Positions 2,186 through 10,251 of a stretch of 36,349 nucleotides of DNA are shown piece by piece; position 1 is the stretch's first letter, and each line of letters opens with the position of its first letter. A model generated the notes under the pieces. The model searched no databases. It saw only the letters and a list, made by a program, of their open reading frames with translations, and was not told where the DNA came from. Origin of the DNA: a bacterium (lineage in GTDB: Bacteria; SZUA-182; DTGQ01); NCBI GenBank assembly GCA_023512255.1, contig JAILZY010000030.1, positions 1 through 36,349 of the forward strand, in the 5' to 3' direction. Made by a program: the position numbers and the translations under genes.

Positions 2186-4105
2186 ATGGCCAAGGCAGTT
2201 GGAATTGACTTAGGTACGACGAATTCCTGTATAGCTGTGATGGAAGGAGGAAAGCCGGTAGTTATCGCCAATGCTGAAGGGGGGAGGACTACTCCCTCAG
2301 TTGTGGCTTTCACCGAGGATGGTCAGCGTCTGGTGGGGCAGATAGCCAAACGCCAGGCAGTGATTAATCCAGAATCCACGATTTTTTCAGCCAAGCGGTT
2401 CATTGGCCGAAACTATAATGAAGTGGGATCAGAGATCAAGATTGTTCCCTACAAGGTAGAGCCTGGCCCTAACAATGCGGTTCGGTTTAATATTAGGGGT
2501 AAGCAGTATGCGCCAGAGGAGATTTCGGCTTTGGTGTTGCGCAAACTGGTGGATGATGCCTCCAATTATCTAGGTGAGCGGGTCAAGCAGGCGGTTATAA
2601 CTGTGCCGGCCTATTTTAATGATGCTCAGCGTCAGGCAACCAAGGATGCAGGGAAAATCGCCGGGCTTGAGGTACTAAGGGTGATCAATGAGCCGACAGC
2701 AGCCGCTCTGGCTTATGGCATGGAGAAGAAGAAAAACGAGACCATCATGGTTTTTGACCTTGGCGGAGGAACCTTTGATGTTTCCATTCTGGAAGTAGGC
2801 GAAGGGGTCTGCGAGGTTCGATCGACTTCAGGTGATACTCACCTGGGTGGCGATGATTTCGACAAGGCCATTGTTGATTGGCTGGCTGAGGAATTTCGCC
2901 GTGAGCAGGGGATTGATCTTCGGGGTGACCGCCAGGCCTTGCAGCGGCTCTATGAGGCTGCGGAAAAAGCCAAGTGTGAGCTCTCGAGCATGGCCCAGAC
3001 CACAATCAATCTTCCCTTCATCACTGCTGACGCCAGCGGGCCAAAGCACCTATCCATGACCTTGACTAGGGCCAAGTTTGAACAGCTGACCCACCATCTG
3101 GTTGAGCGCTGTATGGGGCCGGTCAGACAGGCCTTAAGTGATGCCAAACTGACCGAAAACGACATTGATGAGGTGATTCTGGTGGGCGGAGCCACCCGTA
3201 TGCCTGCGGTTCAGGAACTGGTGCGTAAGTTGACTGGCGGCAAGCAGCCGAACATGTCGGTTAACCCTGATGAGGTTGTGGCTGTTGGGGCAGCCATTCA
3301 GGCCGGAATCATTCAGGGAGAGGTGCGGGATGTGCTCCTGCTGGACGTAACGCCTCTGTCCCTTGGTGTGGAAACCCTTGGCGGAGTCATGACCAAGCTG
3401 ATCGAGCGAAACACCACGATCCCGACCAGAAGGTCTGAGGTTTTCTCAACTGCCGAAGATAACCAGCCGGCAGTGGATATTGTAGTCCTGCAAGGAGAGC
3501 GGCCAATGGCCAGGGATAATCGTCAACTTGGCCGCTTTAAGCTGGAAGGCATTCGTCCGGCACCTCGTGGAGTGCCTCAGATCGAGGTTACTTTCGATAT
3601 TGATGCCAATGGGATCTTGAATGTTTCGGCTAAGGACCGGGACACGGGCAAGGAACAGAAGATCACTATCAGCGGATCGACTAACCTGGACAAGAGTGAG
3701 ATCGAGCGTATGATCCGCGATGCCGAGGCTCATGCAGCCGAGGACCGAAGCCGCAAGGAAGCCATTGAGGAGCGCAATCAGGCTGACTCTCTGGCCTATC
3801 AGGTTGAGCGGATGCTGCGTGAGTTGGGTGATCGGGCTCCGGTCCATGAAAAGGCACGCTGTGAGCAGCTGATTGCTGATATCCGCCAGGCTATCAAGGA
3901 TGAGGCGCCGGTGGAGAGGATCAGGCAATTGAAGAGCGATCTGCAGCAGGCTTCCTATAGTCTAAGTGCTGCTGCCCAGCAGGCTGGAGTTGGTGGTCCG
4001 GCGACGGGCACGGGTACAGGTACAGGCTCAGCCGGAGGAGCCAGAGGTGGCGGCCAGCCTTCAGGCGGTGAAGATGTAATTGATGCTGAGTTTACCGAAA
4101 AATAA
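2186..4105 (+). CDS. dnaK: Chaperone protein DnaK (Hsp70)
   Basis: The ATP-dependent Hsp70 chaperone that binds exposed hydrophobic segments of client proteins in the cytoplasm. At 639 residues it is full length. The N-terminal nucleotide-binding domain shows [10 protein letters not shown] near residues 6-15 and the second phosphate motif [10 protein letters not shown] near residue 190. The substrate-binding domain and helical lid follow. A Gly/Thr-rich linker precedes the acidic tail ending [12 protein letters not shown], typical of bacterial DnaK. The ATG at 2186 has AAGGAGG at 2170-2176, nine bases upstream. It leads a block with grpE, a J protein and a CbpM-like adapter, so all parts of the Hsp70 cycle are encoded together. 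No CIRCE operator is present; see the palindrome at 2128. Confidence 0.98.
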
Positions 4106-4146
4106 TCTAGCGCTTGAAGGAGTAGACTATCTTGAAGGAGCAGACT

Positions 4147-4803
4147 ATGAAGAGACGGCAAGAAGAAAAATCTCAGCAGATTCAAGAACAAAGGGCAGAT
4201 AAGCCAAAGGAAGAAGAGGCCGGACCGCATCCTGTCCGGCCTGCTGAGAGTCTGGCTGAGGAAGAAAGCGAAGCTATCGCCCAACAGAAGGAGGCTATCA
4301 GAGAGGAAGAGGCTGCGGCCCGCAAACAGATTGATGAATTAGACCAGATGGTAGCTAGTCTGAGACAGCAGCTCCAAGAGATGGAAGATCGCTGGAAGAG
4401 AGCGGCTGCGGACCTTGACAACTACCGCAAACGCTTTGATCGGGAGCTTGAGCGGCTTCGATTTGCTGAGCGGGATTTTGTTCTTCACGAGTGGCTGGCA
4501 GTGGTGGACAATATGGAGCGGGCCCTTCGGGCTGCGGAAAATGCCTCGGATAACCCCTGGTATCAGGGTATGCAGGCTATCTATCAACAGATGCATAGCA
4601 TTCTCCATAAGTTTCGAGTAACCCCAATTAATCCGAAGGGGGAATTCTTTGATCCGCAGCGGCATGAGGCCGTAGCTACGGTTGATCTGGAAGATCAGCC
4701 TGAGGGGATCATTGCCGAAGTGGTTGAGCCTGGCTACATCATTTGTGATCGTATTCTGCGGCCAGCAAAAGTTATTCCGGTGAGGCATCAGGCCAAAAAG
4801 TAA
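4147..4803 (+). CDS. grpE: Nucleotide exchange factor GrpE
   Basis: GrpE releases ADP from DnaK and so resets the chaperone cycle. The 218-residue protein starts with a charged Glu/Lys/Gln-rich segment. A long coiled-coil helix follows (about residues 60-110), carrying the conserved WKRAAADLDNYRKR dimer region. The C-terminal beta domain ends with the family's typical VVEPGYIICDRILRPAKV segment. I chose the ATG at 4147 because AAGGAG at 4135-4140 lies six bases before it; an upstream in-frame TTG at 4132 would overlap that site. The gene follows dnaK by 41 bases, and those bases contain a duplicated ribosome-binding segment. Confidence 0.95.
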   Translation: MKRRQEEKSQQIQEQRADKPKEEEAGPHPVRPAESLAEEESEAIAQQKEAIREEEAAARKQIDELDQMVASLRQQLQEMEDRWKRAAADLDNYRKRFDRELERLRFAERDFVLHEWLAVVDNMERALRAAENASDNPWYQGMQAIYQQMHSILHKFRVTPINPKGEFFDPQRHEAVATVDLEDQPEGIIAEVVEPGYIICDRILRPAKVIPVRHQAKK

Positions 4804-4832
4804 GGCGAAAAGTAAGGTTACGAGGGTAATTA

Positions 4833-5819
4833 ATGGCCATTAAGTTTCAGGATTATTATCAGGTATTAGGTGTTCCCCGCAATGCCTCGCAGGATGAGAT
4901 TCAGCGCGCCTATCGAAAGCTGGCCCGAAAATATCATCCTGATATCAACAAGAGCCCGGACGCGGAAGAGCAGTTTAAGAAGATCAGCGAGGCTTATGAG
5001 GTACTGAAAGACCCGGAAAAGCGCAGGAAATACGACATGCTTGGAGAAAACTGGCGTGCGGGTCAGGATTTCACACCCCCGCCGGGTTGGGACTTTTGGA
5101 CCAGCCGCGCTGGCACTGGGGGAGGATTTAATTTCAGTGACCTTGGGGGACTTGGCGGAAGAAATTTCAGCGACTTTTTCGAGGCCCTGTTTGGAGCAGG
5201 TCTGGGTGGTTTTCGAACCGCTGGACGAGCCAGAGCAGAAGGCTGGACAGCTCGTGGCCAGGATCGGGAGGCCGAGATTACTATTTCTTTGGAAGATGCC
5301 TATTATGGGGCCAAGAAAACTATTTCTCTGGAATCCCTAAAACCAGATCCGACCACAGGCCACATGCAGCGTACTACCCAAAACCTTGAGGTTACGATTC
5401 CGGCGGGGATAACCGATGGCCGTCGCATCCGGCTCAGTGGTCAGGGGGAGCCAGGGATTGGCGGTGGCCCACCTGGGGATTTATACCTTCTGGTGCATAT
5501 TGCTCCCCATCCAGTTTTCCAGCTAAAAGAATATGATTTGATCGTGGAAGTGCCGGTAGCGCCCTGGGAGGCAGCCCTTGGGGCTCAGGTTGAGGTGCCA
5601 ACTATGGAGGGGACAGCCAGGGTAAAAATTCCACCTGGGATTCAGAGCGGACAGCGGCTGCGACTGCGAGGCAAAGGGCTAGCTAAGCCAGGAGGAGAAC
5701 GGGGCGATTTGTATGCCTTGATTCAGGTAGCAGTGCCTAAGACATTAAATCAAAAAGAGCGGGAGCTTTTTGAGGAACTGGCTAGGCACTCCTCTTTTCA
5801 GCCGAGGCAGCGATCGTAA
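4833..5819 (+). CDS. cbpA: DnaJ-family co-chaperone, CbpA type (no zinc finger)
   Basis: A J-domain protein that stimulates DnaK ATP hydrolysis and delivers clients. Residues 5-70 are a J domain with the HPD motif at 35-37. A Gly/Phe-rich stretch (about residues 80-140) follows, then the two beta-sandwich C-terminal domains. The CxxCxGxG zinc repeats of true DnaJ are absent and the length is 328 residues, so this is class B (CbpA-like). It lies between grpE and a CbpM-like gene, which supports the CbpA assignment. It is the only J protein in the window, so it may serve as the main DnaK partner here. That is inference. Confidence 0.92.
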
Positions 5820-5831
5820 GGGGGAAAAACC

Positions 5832-6152
5832 ATGGGAGAAGAACATCGTTATGAGATCGTGGTTCGGTGTTTGAATCAAGGTTTTCCCGGCCTGTTTCGC
5901 TTGTCTGATCTAGCCCAGATAGCTGGCCTGCATCCAGACCTTGTCAGGCGGTTTCTGACACTTGGACTTATTGAACCGGCTAGGCTCTGGCCAGAGCCTC
6001 TATTTACCGATGAGGCGATCTTGCGGATCAGCCGTATTCTCAGGCTGCGCCGGGACATGGGGGTGAATCTGGCCTCTGCGGGCATTATCCTTGATTTGCT
6101 CGATCAGATCGAGGAGCTCAAAAGAGAGCTTGACCGTCTGCGAAGGCTATAA
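5832..6152 (+). CDS. cbpM: CbpM-like chaperone modulator (MerR-type helix-turn-helix)
   Basis: A 106-residue MerR-like protein. A winged helix-turn-helix (about residues 20-70, with LIEP and an LFTDEAI segment) is followed by a C-terminal helix rich in Leu, Glu and Arg. The pattern LGLIEP..LFTDEAILR..RILRLRRDMGVNLAS..LDLLDQIEELKREL closely matches E. coli CbpM, which binds the J domain of CbpA and restrains it. It starts 12 bases after the J-protein gene, with GGGG upstream of the ATG. Actinobacterial dnaK operons carry HspR, a MerR-type repressor, in the same place, so a DNA-binding autoregulator is the main alternative. Confidence 0.82.
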   Translation: MGEEHRYEIVVRCLNQGFPGLFRLSDLAQIAGLHPDLVRRFLTLGLIEPARLWPEPLFTDEAILRISRILRLRRDMGVNLASAGIILDLLDQIEELKRELDRLRRL

Positions 6153-6182
6153 GCTAGACTATAAGGCTTGACGGGGCTATAA

Positions 6183-6240
6183 GGCTAAGACTATAGATAC
6201 AGAACAGAAAGGCTAAGACTATAGATTAAGACTATAGATA
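6183..6240 (+). repeat. Short tandem-like repeats before htpG
   Basis: The word TAAGACTATAGAT occurs at about 6186, 6214 and 6227; the first two copies are extended by a preceding GGC. Related GCTAGACTATAAGGCT lies just upstream. They fill most of the gap between cbpM and htpG. No promoter consensus was identified inside them. Confidence 0.6.
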
Positions 6241-6288
6241 CATAGAGACAGAAGATAAGATATAGTTTCTCAAGGAGGTTATATATCC

Positions 6289-8175
6289 ATGCCAATTGAT
6301 GTGGGAGTAAAGGGTGTCGAAACCTATCAATTCCAGGCCGAGGTAAAAAAGGTTCTGGACATAGTTATTCATTCTCTGTATACCGATCGAGAGATCTTTA
6401 TCCGCGAGCTGATATCCAATGCGGTTGATGCCCTTGAAAAGTTTCGGCATGAGAGTTTGCTTCACAAAGAAGTGTTTGACGGACACCTCTCGCTTGAGAT
6501 TTTGATCAATACGGATGAAAAAGCCCATACTCTAACCATTATCGATACTGGGATCGGCATGACCCACGACGAGCTGATCACTAACCTAGGCTCTATTGCC
6601 CACTCAGGATCTCAGCAGTTTCTTGCTCAACTGGCTGAGGCGGCTCGACAGGATATCAACCTGATCGGTCAATTTGGGGTTGGCTTCTATTCCGCCTTTA
6701 TGGTGGCTGATCGAGTAAGGGTTCAGACTCGCAGCTTCCGGCCCGAGGAGCGGGGATGGGAGTGGGTGAGTGATGGATCTGGCACCTACACCATAGCCCC
6801 GATGGATGGGCTTCGCCGGGGAACTAAGATTATTCTTGAGCTAAAAGAAAATGCCTACGAATTTGCAGATCCTGAGGTCATCAAACGGGCCATAAAGCGC
6901 TACTCGAACTTTGTTCCCTTCCCCATTCTGGTCAGGGGAGAGCGGGTCAACACCATCCAGGCCATCTGGACCCGCAACAAGAGCGAAATCAAGGATGAGG
7001 AGTACACCGAGTTTTACAAATTTATCGCTAACGCCTTCGATGAGCCTCTGTATTTTCTCCACTTTAGCGCTGATGCCCCCTTGGCTATCAAGGCTCTTTT
7101 ATTTGTCCCCAAGGAGAACCTTGAGCGGTTCGGCTTTGGCAGGATGGAGCCAGGGGTGGATCTCTACTGCCGCAAGGTGCTAATCGCCAAACATCCCGAA
7201 GGACTTCTGCCAGAGTGGATGAGGTTTTTGCGGGGAGTGATCGACAGCGAAGATCTGCCCTTGAATATATCTCGAGAGACTCTGCAGGATAACACCATTG
7301 TCAGAAAGATCAACCAGGTGATCAGCAGCCGTTTCCTCAAGTTTCTTGAAGATGAAGCCAGAGATAATCCGGAAAAATTCAACAATTTCTGGAACACCTT
7401 TGGCATATTCCTAAAAGAGGGCACGGTTAATGATTTCCAGCATCAGAAGGAGATTGCCAGGCTGCTGCGCTTTGAGTCATCTAAAACCGAGCCAGGCAAA
7501 CTAACCTCGCTGGCTGAGTACGTCGAGCGGATGAAAGAAGGGCAGAAAGTGATCTATTATCTCAATGGCCCATCACGGGAGATCATCGAGTCTGGACCCT
7601 ACCTTGAAGCTTTCCGCAACCGCGATCTTGAAGTTATCTACACCCATGATCCTATTGATGATTTCGTTATGAGCAATCTGCATGAATTCGAGGGCAAAAA
7701 GCTCCTTTCTGCTGATCAGGCTGATCTTGAGCTGCCAGAGGAGAAAAAAGAGGGAGCAAAAGGGGAAGAGGTGAAGATAGGCGAGTCTTTGAGCCCTGAT
7801 CAGATAAAATCTTTAACTGCCTGGCTCAAGGAGATTTTGGCCAATCGGGTCAAGGATGTGGTCGAGTCTCACCGCCTAGTGGACAGCCCGGCCATTGTGG
7901 TCAATCCGGACAGTGGTCTGAGCAGTGCCATGCGAAGGGTCATGCAGGTTGTGGATAAAAAGCTCAGCCAGGAGCTGCCCCACCTGACCATGGAGATAAA
8001 CCCCCGGCATCCCCTGATCCGCGGTTTGGATAGGTTACGAGCTCAGGATCCAGAGTTTGCCAAGATCGTAGGTGAGCAGATTTTCGATAATGCTCTAATC
8101 GCCGCTGGCCTTCTGGCCGAACCAAGGAACATGGTGGATCGGATGTACCGCATTCTGGAGCGAGTTACCCAGTAG
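6289..8175 (+). CDS. htpG: Chaperone protein HtpG (Hsp90)
   Basis: The bacterial Hsp90, an ATP-dependent dimeric cytoplasmic chaperone that acts on late folding intermediates, often with DnaK. At 628 residues it is full length. The N-terminal GHKL ATPase domain shows NAVDALEK near residue 44, DTGIGMT near 86 and GQFGVGFYSAFM near 127. The middle domain has the ISRETLQ segment with the ATP-contacting Arg, and the C-terminal dimerisation domain is complete. AAGGAGG lies 11 bases before the ATG at 6289. It sits 136 bases after the cbpM-like gene and probably belongs to the same heat-shock region. Confidence 0.97.
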   Translation: MPIDVGVKGVETYQFQAEVKKVLDIVIHSLYTDREIFIRELISNAVDALEKFRHESLLHKEVFDGHLSLEILINTDEKAHTLTIIDTGIGMTHDELITNLGSIAHSGSQQFLAQLAEAARQDINLIGQFGVGFYSAFMVADRVRVQTRSFRPEERGWEWVSDGSGTYTIAPMDGLRRGTKIILELKENAYEFADPEVIKRAIKRYSNFVPFPILVRGERVNTIQAIWTRNKSEIKDEEYTEFYKFIANAFDEPLYFLHFSADAPLAIKALLFVPKENLERFGFGRMEPGVDLYCRKVLIAKHPEGLLPEWMRFLRGVIDSEDLPLNISRETLQDNTIVRKINQVISSRFLKFLEDEARDNPEKFNNFWNTFGIFLKEGTVNDFQHQKEIARLLRFESSKTEPGKLTSLAEYVERMKEGQKVIYYLNGPSREIIESGPYLEAFRNRDLEVIYTHDPIDDFVMSNLHEFEGKKLLSADQADLELPEEKKEGAKGEEVKIGESLSPDQIKSLTAWLKEILANRVKDVVESHRLVDSPAIVVNPDSGLSSAMRRVMQVVDKKLSQELPHLTMEINPRHPLIRGLDRLRAQDPEFAKIVGEQIFDNALIAAGLLAEPRNMVDRMYRILERVTQ

Positions 8176-8619
8176 GGTGGTACAATAGGCGATACACAGC
8201 AGGGTGGCCAAATAGGGGAGGAGAGTGCAAGAAGAAAGATTTTTTCAACCTTAATTTTCATGCCTCATCAAGTTTAATTTTATCTTTTTCTCCCCTGACA
8301 CCCTCTCCAATCCTCCATCAAGGCGGGAGAGAGTATGAGAGGGACTTCCCCTTCCCATAAAATATAGATGGGGGGGCGGGGTTGACCACAAGAGATTTTT
8401 CTTGCCTTGCTGTTAGCTTTTTAGTATAGTTATTAATATTTCGAGTTTCTTTTAGTATTTTCGAATTGTCGAACAGGGGTTTTCTTCAGGCTTCTTTGGG
8501 CAACACTTCTTTGGGCAACATCTTGTTTTTTTTCTTTTTCAGCAAGCCAGGTGATAATTTTTCATCTCTATTCAGCTTCTTATCCGGCATGAGAAAAGGT
8601 TTAAGGGGGGATGAAAAAG
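8176..8619. other. Intergenic region between htpG and the SCP2-like gene
   Basis: About 440 bases without a gene. The clearest structure is a perfect two-unit tandem repeat, CTTCTTTGGGCAACA, at 8491-8505 and 8506-8520. A poly-G tract near 8371 and T-rich tracts near 8400 and 8525 are present. No clear terminator hairpin was found for htpG. Confidence 0.5.
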
Positions 8620-9102
8620 ATGGGTAATTGGCTCCAGAGGCAGTTTCAGCAGTGGCAATTTCGAAGAGCAAAGAGAAAGTTTCAACAATGTGTGGCTGGA
8701 GAATCAGCCGAGACCTTTCCGCAGGTTCTTTTTCATCTGATAGATCTGCTCTTTAAGATGAATCCTGATTTTAGGAAAAGTATCCAAGGTTTTACCGGAA
8801 GCTACCAATTCAAGAGTGAAGACAGACGGGTGGCTTTTTTGGCCACCTTCGACCATGATCGGCTAACCATCGAAGAGACCATATCTGCTGAAGCTGATAT
8901 CACTATAACCTTCAAAGACAGTCGGGGTATTATCAATACCTTAATTTCCCCCAGGAAAGATATTCTGAAAACTCTTCGTGAAAATGAAGTGGCTCTCCAG
9001 GGAAATCCAAACTATTTTTATAAACTTGGATTTTTAACTGATCACATTCAATTGGCTCTGAACGAGGAGGGTTGTCTCAGTAGCCACAGTCAATCTCATT
9101 AA
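8620..9102 (+). CDS. SCP2-like (sterol carrier protein 2 fold) domain protein
   Basis: A small soluble protein of 160 residues. After a basic amphipathic N-terminus (about residues 1-30), the rest resembles the SCP2 lipid-binding fold. It has the typical F.G.YQFKSEDRRVAFLATF strand pattern, a DITITFKDSRGI segment and a final helix ending PNYFYKLGFLTDHI. SCP2 domains hold hydrophobic ligands, but the ligand here is unknown. I prefer the ATG at 8620 because AAGGGGGG (8603-8610) lies nine bases before it and directly touches the alternative ATG at 8611. The next gene, a radical SAM activase, begins 21 bases downstream, so the two are probably co-transcribed. Confidence 0.6.
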   Translation: MGNWLQRQFQQWQFRRAKRKFQQCVAGESAETFPQVLFHLIDLLFKMNPDFRKSIQGFTGSYQFKSEDRRVAFLATFDHDRLTIEETISAEADITITFKDSRGIINTLISPRKDILKTLRENEVALQGNPNYFYKLGFLTDHIQLALNEEGCLSSHSQSH

Positions 9103-9122: not shown

Positions 9123-10009
9123 GTGAGCCGTCCGTTGGTTATTGATATTAAAAAGCAAGCTCTCCCCAGTAGCTCAGACATGCAAATCACCATTTTTTTT
9201 TTAAAGGTTGTCAACTAAATTGTTTATGGTGCCATAGCCCGGAAGTTATTGATCCAGATATGGAAATCGGTTTTTACCCATCAAAATGCCTTGCTTGTGG
9301 AAGTTGCGTGGAGGTTTGCCCAGTCAGAGCGTGCAGCCTTGATAATCCCGGCCGAATTGACCGACAGCGCTGCAAGCGATGTGGTCGATGCACAGAGGTT
9401 TGTTCTGGTTTTAGTTTACGGCGCATCGGCACCTACTATCCAGCCGAGAAGATTCTTGAGCTTGTGCTCCAGGATCAGATTTTTTATCGTAGCCAGCCTG
9501 GTTGGGTAATTTTGTCGGGAGGAGAGCCGACCCTTTATCCTAGTTATATCTCGACTCTCCTCAGGATGCTGAAAGAGAAGAGGATTTGTACCGTTATTAA
9601 AACCAACGGGCTTTTCGACGCTACCGAATTTCAGGAAATCATCCTTGAGTTTGTTGATCTTATTTATTTTGACATCAAACTGGTGCACCCAGGTCTTCAC
9701 TGCCTCTATACTGGACAGAGGAACGAGCAGATACTGGACAATCTGACCCTGCTCATGAAGCTTTGTCCTAATAAGGTGGTTCCCCGCATTCCCCTTGTTC
9801 CTGGCATCACTACCACTGATGAAGCCCGCCAATCTATGTCCAACCTATTTCAGAGATTGGGCATCAAAGAATATGTCCTCCTGCCGTATAGTTCTCTTGG
9901 CCATAGTAAGCTTCAGAATTTGGGTAAATTGCCCCTCATGCCCCATACTCAGGCTGGTGCGGAGAATCTGAGCTGGAGACAGGAGGGCAAACCGGTTGCG
10001 ATTCCGTGA
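9123..10009 (+). CDS. Glycyl-radical-enzyme activase-like radical SAM protein, interrupted by a frameshift in a T10 run
   Basis: Radical SAM enzymes of this group use a 4Fe-4S cluster and S-adenosylmethionine, typically to install a glycyl radical on a partner. The main frame carries CQLNCLWC (CxxxCxxC, from 9209). Two ferredoxin-like Cys clusters follow (CLACGSCVEVC and CKRCGRCTEVC), then SGGEPT and the C-terminal RIPLVPGI and LPYSSLG segments. This frame has no good start: it is closed by TAG at 9170, and its first ATG (9260) lies after the radical SAM cysteines. The missing N-terminus (PLVIDIKK...ITIFF) is in another frame from GTG 9123, with GAGG upstream. The frames meet at ten T (9193-9202). 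The DGPGIR motif usual before the cysteines is replaced by SSSDMQI. No glycyl radical enzyme is nearby. Confidence 0.75.
9193..9202 (+). other. T10 homopolymer at the frameshift point
   Basis: Ten consecutive T join the two halves of the radical SAM gene. Eight or eleven T would restore one frame reading I-F-F-K-G-C or I-F-F-F-K-G-C. A sequencing or assembly length error, a real mutation, or polymerase slippage on the homopolymer would all fit. Confidence 0.85.
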
Positions 10010-10176
10010 ATTCTCTTTGGGCTAGAAATCGCCGACTGATGATTAGACAATCGTCGGCTGATGATCTGAAAAGCCACAAAACAGAAAAAAATCGTATCGT
10101 TCCGAATAATACTCCTTGGCCAGCCGATAACCGTAATAACGAGATTTAATTCGGAAGAGGAATCCCACGAATAGGG

Positions 10177-10251
10177 GTCCCTGGCCTTGGGGTCCGTCCT
10201 CCTTGCGCTTTTAAGCGTACAGATAATCCCTAAGGCCAGGGACTTTTATTT
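10177..10251 (+). terminator. Terminator-like long-stem structure (possible structured RNA)
   Basis: GTCCCTGGCCTT (10177-10188) pairs perfectly over 12 bases with AAGGCCAGGGAC (10232-10243), followed directly by TTTTATTT. The stem and U-rich tail fit intrinsic termination. The 43-base loop is long for a terminator and holds its own CGCTT/AAGCG hairpin (10206-10217). It probably ends transcription from the SCP2/radical SAM pair, but a structured non-coding RNA is possible. Confidence 0.6.

Follow-up and report, generated by a model that had tools for sequence, protein, structure and literature searches.

The split activase gene and its surroundings

The window, the whole stretch of 36,349 nucleotides analysed here, carries on its forward strand a set of heat-shock genes (dnaK, grpE, dnaJ, an hspR-like gene and htpG; 2186-8175), followed 3' by a gene for an SCP2-fold protein of 163 aa (protein X; 8611-9102), an activase gene divided between two reading frames, and a rubrerythrin gene. 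The main frame of the activase (9203-10009, forward strand) combines a radical SAM domain with a 4Fe-4S ferredoxin-like insert. It scored 206.1 bits against TIGR02494 (curated cut-off 174.35, E 6.7e-61), matched PF04055, and also holds two ferredoxin-like cysteine motifs, and on these profile matches we identify the protein as a glycyl-radical-enzyme activating protein of the TIGR02494 family. Directly 3' of the gene lies a very stable hairpin (10169-10251, z -5.2) containing GTCCGTCCTCCTTGCGC, which includes an anti-Shine-Dalgarno-like CCTCCTT and is identical at the same place in the other available genome of the genus; the hairpin is present as a single copy in the window and had no Rfam match.

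A TAG at 9170-9172 closes the main frame 5' of a run of ten T (T10; 9193-9202, forward strand), and between this TAG and an ATG at 9260 the frame has no ATG, GTG or TTG. The sole complete ORF that can be annotated in it, 9260-10009 (249 aa), therefore excludes the CxxxCxxC radical SAM motif at 9209-9232, so that the cysteines expected of a TIGR02494 activase are not part of a translatable ORF. They can be reached only from the N-terminal frame, which begins at GTG 9123, is translated as VSRPLVIDIKKQALPSSSDMQITIFFLKVVN* and ends at a TAA at 9216-9218; it aligns with the N-terminus of an intact orthologue (VNRPLVIDIKRHALAGSSGIRTTIFF), and T10 is the point where the two frames join. An earlier sequence-only reading of this DNA had placed the CxxxCxxC motif in a main frame with a stop at 9170 and no usable start, had located the N-terminus in another frame from GTG 9123 that meets the main frame at ten T, and had predicted that eight or eleven T would restore a protein of about 295 residues. 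All of this is borne out: the first start after the TAG is ATG 9260, the orthologue uses the same GTG, and the computed products are 294 aa with eight T and 295 aa with eleven. A T10 run alone is not rare, as shuffling the window 100 times gave at least one in 13 cases, but across the genome just six A/T runs reach ten or more, four of them within genes. The position of this one coincides with the meeting point of two homologous reading frames.

Orthologues, constraint and eroded motifs

The phylum is represented by only nine genomes, one of which (G002) belongs to the same genus as the window's own genome (G000). A family-wide search identified an intact activase orthologue in G002, a protein of 294 aa with 73% identity, the same GTG start and a TIGR02494 score of 243.9 bits. 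The gene order htpG, protein X, activase, rubrerythrin is common to both genomes, as is the order of the heat-shock genes. At the site of the break G002 reads ATCTTTTTCAAA with its frame unbroken (codons ACC ACG ATC TTT TTC AAA GGC, where the window has ATC ACC A-T10-AAA GGT), and the homologues of G001, G003 and G008 have RTTVF(L/F)KGC at the eight-T length. All four genes are unbroken and none has a T run. Because both G002 and these more distant homologues have the eight-T length, the alignment indicates that the ancestral length is eight T, that the window carries a net insertion of two, and that the T run is private to its lineage; with eight T, the window's protein would be identical in length to that of G002. 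The lesion that disables the gene is absent from the orthologue, as expected of a pseudogene.

The main mark of programmed frameshifting is a conserved slippery site (GeneTack criteria, PMC3711429), and a conserved slippery run, expected also of programmed transcriptional slippage, was not found among these homologues. The sequence-only reading had raised RNA-polymerase slippage on the run as a genuine control switch, to be judged by the conservation of the run in related genomes. With the comparison made, the T run is not conserved and the G002 tract is interrupted, so that the chief argument for a regulatory switch falls away. RNA polymerase could still slip on U10 (+1 or -2) and yield some in-frame mRNA, as either a harmless rescue or a switch. 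RNA polymerase is known to slip on long T runs (PMC1088944, PMC6260861, PMC5574713): many bacteria are prone to slippage at A/T runs of nine or more (PMC1088944), poly(T) provokes more slippage by the E. coli polymerase (PMC6260861), and Blochmannia vafer has eight genes with homopolymer frameshifts that are possibly rescued in this way (PMC3017870). The conservation of the main frame would also fit. Against this stand the private run and the unbroken sister gene, a +1 product one residue longer than every homologue, the loss of motif residues described below and the lack of an enzyme to activate, and we consider slippage of this kind unlikely.

Compared with G002, the main frame has a dN/dS of 0.148, near the values for protein X (0.143) and grpE (0.137), which indicates that the activase has been constrained through most of the period after the two lineages split and that the break is either young or not real. 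If real, then, it is probably young relative to the split. No second lesion, either another stop or another indel, was seen in the activase. The window copy does show a relative-rate excess over G002 (31 changes versus 15), and MutL shows the same asymmetry (57 versus 32), so that the excess is partly lineage-wide; we dropped it as proof of activase decay and give it little weight relative to the kind of residues that have changed. A mutator lineage was also considered and rejected, as the genome has an uninterrupted MutL gene.

More telling is which residues have changed. Like the pyruvate formate-lyase (PFL)-activating enzyme (PDB 3c8f, 3cb8) and other TIGR02494 proteins, the window copy has the CxxxCxxC motif and the GGE segment, and it shares the ferredoxin-like 4Fe-4S insert with the larger TIGR02494 activases. 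It differs from them in the split frame, in the missing partner enzyme, in the lost DGPG loop and in three substituted motifs (GIR to DMQ, CHN to CHS, GGVT to GWVI). The DGPGIR site before the cluster loop, characteristic of TIGR02494 activases, is DGPGIR or NGPGIR in all outgroups, GSSGIR in G002 and SSSDMQ in the window; the DGP was thus already absent in G002, and the window has further lost the GIR. Ten sites that are invariant among the outgroups are altered in the window copy and two in G002, and the ten include all three substituted motifs, of which GIR to DMQ precedes T10 and the other two follow it. Everything downstream of the break had been described as intact, which is accurate for the reading frame under its low dN/dS and not for these strongly conserved residues. 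The related view that long-standing decay is unlikely gains from the dN/dS and is weakened by the erosion of the motifs.

Homopolymer runs elsewhere in the genome

There are 51 A/T runs of nine or more in the genome, and since codon-usage scoring was too weak for most of them, we classified them by homologues instead. Three of the four coding runs of ten or more break the frame of their gene, namely the activase T10, a T11 in a rhomboid gene and an A10 in a DksA/TraR-like gene, while an A10 in tgt leaves that gene open. Of about 20 coding runs of nine, 18 lie in Pfam-matched genes that stay open and two disrupt a gene, in one case for a peptide-binding protein and in the other for a sensor kinase; about 19 family-supported genes in total are open across long A/T runs (9-10). 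Homologues of the four additional broken genes align gap-free at a shorter run length: 9 versus 11 in the rhomboid gene (L046 1024-1034), 9 versus 10 in the DksA/TraR-like gene (L048 275-284), and 8 versus 9 in both the peptide-binding protein and sensor kinase genes (L076 718-726, L092 694-702). All five broken genes carry net insertions of one or two, among runs of nine or more, the lengths that the search covered. They are also all of dispensable types, in numbers too small for a test, and the frames of Tgt, RbfA, SMC, TatC, MurJ, GreA and HemA are unaffected by their own runs of 9-10.

In the sister genome G002, by eye, the frame changes at T9/A9 runs at L132 710-718 and 1814-1822, 1.1 kb apart, in CsgG-like-looking and repeat-domain-looking proteins. 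Also in G002 (L106 708-716), the orfA of an IS3-type transposase meets orfB at an A9 run, which is the known recoding arrangement. An apparent excess of homopolymer breaks in G000 over G002 (p about 0.05) was rejected on account of the at least two A9/T9 frame changes in G002, and such breaks are thus not special to one assembly.

The main rival to a real mutation is a consensus error, in which T10 arose in sequencing or assembly and the true tract of eight (or eleven) T leaves an ordinary, unbroken gene in the cell. The assembly is a draft of 172 contigs, the main frame shows purifying selection, and the breaks are concentrated at the longest runs in otherwise open genes, as an error confined to such runs would produce; the pattern also fits slipped-strand mutation. 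Homopolymer-error-prone platforms mostly shorten runs, whereas all five cases here are insertions (among runs of nine or more, the lengths searched), and the runs of 6-8 nt inside the window's intact ORFs (30 A/T and six G/C, about 36 in all) are harmless, unlike what such platforms would leave. An error would also not account for the erosion of the activase at conserved motifs. We regard an error as a realistic explanation that is nevertheless less probable than a real mutation, which is slightly favoured because the 30 A/T runs of 6-8 are unaffected, the five breaks are all insertions in dispensable genes, and the partner enzyme is lost. The sequence-only reading, which had offered error, decay or slippage and took a length error as the simplest, is partly supported: the run is off its ancestral length by two, the preference for error gives way slightly to mutation, and the switch is unsupported.

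Programmed -1 ribosomal frameshifting, a route that the sequence-only reading had not raised, was considered as well, as the run provides a U_UUU_UUA heptamer (9197-9203, forward strand) that conforms to X_XXY_YYZ in the phase of the GTG frame, with the main frame at -1 to it, so that a shift would join the two. We found no stable structure downstream of the run (z +0.5), where a stimulatory structure would be expected, and no Shine-Dalgarno-like stimulator just upstream. The heptamer is not conserved in G002, its product would be one residue longer ahead of the cluster loop, and in E. coli U_UUU_UUA is far less shift-prone than A_AAA_AAG (PMC5009743). The four other broken genes would have to be restored by shifts in different directions, so there is no common ribosomal mechanism, and we consider such recoding very unlikely. 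Some activase could be rescued by leakage, through RNA-polymerase slippage or a -1 shift on this heptamer, but the data lend this no support.

An activase without a detectable partner enzyme

Activases of the TIGR02494 family are expected to share a genome with a glycyl radical enzyme, and we found no match to the PFL-like (PF02901) or Gly_radical (PF01228) domains in G000 or G002, both ~97% complete; both domains are present in G001 and G003, and the controls gave the expected result. The gene order glycyl radical enzyme, protein X, activase occurs in G003 and G008, where the activase motif is the canonical (D/N)GPGIRTT. In G001 the glycyl radical enzyme adjoins protein X and the activase lies on a different contig. 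Protein X thus occurs with the activase, the glycyl radical enzyme or both in five genomes: it adjoins the enzyme in G001, G003 and G008, and it adjoins the activase in the two genomes of the window's own genus, which lack the enzyme (L042, L044 and L019; 8611-9102 and 9123-10009 in the window). Protein X matched no Pfam family at cut-off, and its Foldseek matches were to UbiJ-SCP2 and alkylsulfatase SCP2-like domains. Protein X, with its sterol carrier fold, may bring a hydrophobic substrate.

Taken together, we believe that an activase gene already orphaned of its enzyme partner in this genus was broken recently, when slipped-strand mispairing lengthened a T tract, a reading to which we give a probability of about one half. 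On this reading, an ancestral stretch coding for I-F-F-K at the length of eight T would have become an uninterrupted T run through synonymous third-position changes in the window's lineage, and replication slippage would then have brought the run to ten T. A ribosome starting at GTG 9123 would stop eight codons past its arrival at the run, and the downstream ORF would lack the iron-sulfur cysteines, leaving no working activase except through RNA-polymerase slippage leakage. With the partner enzyme gone, the insertion would have been tolerated. We infer that the insertion lies in the DNA of the cell rather than in the consensus only, that it happened recently, and that loss of the partner made it tolerable. 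In favour of this reading stand the intact 73% orthologue, with its identical gene order and GTG and its shorter, interrupted tract, the missing glycyl radical enzyme, the altered motifs, the low dN/dS and the further homopolymer breaks; against it stand the lack of a second lesion in the gene, the lineage-wide part of the rate excess and the intact MutL, which gives no sign of a mutator.

Two further possibilities assign the tract a function, and both appear very unlikely. The run could serve phase variation, with slipped-strand mispairing switching the gene on and off, and a tract of such length can indeed have a high mutation rate. It is not conserved in the sister species, the activase is not a surface or modification gene, and its target enzyme is absent. 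Alternatively, the SCP2-activase pair of this genus could have outlived its enzyme and been recruited beside the heat-shock genes for a different role, with full-length activase in the window's species made only from T10-slipped mRNA and its level set in this way.

The closest known cases are the singletons classed by GeneTack as "indel mutation or sequencing error" (PMC3711429), which likewise consist of one gene with a frame break at one A/T run and no conserved frameshift site among homologues; unlike these, the window's activase also has a missing partner enzyme and altered motif residues. The poly(A)/poly(T) frameshifts of Blochmannia and Buchnera are similar in that each genome has several net A/T-tract indels in genes that are open apart from them, the tract being interrupted in a relative whose gene is intact, and they are possibly rescued by transcriptional slippage (PMC3017870). 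In contrast to those genomes, the window's genome is not AT-rich or reduced (48-50% GC in the window, 3.8 Mb). The orphan activase most likely shows a homopolymer frameshift of the ordinary singleton kind, not a genetic switch, and one sister genome with an interrupted tract is enough to undo the chief case for programmed recoding. Of more interest is that a genus with no detectable glycyl radical enzyme retains the SCP2-activase pair under purifying selection.
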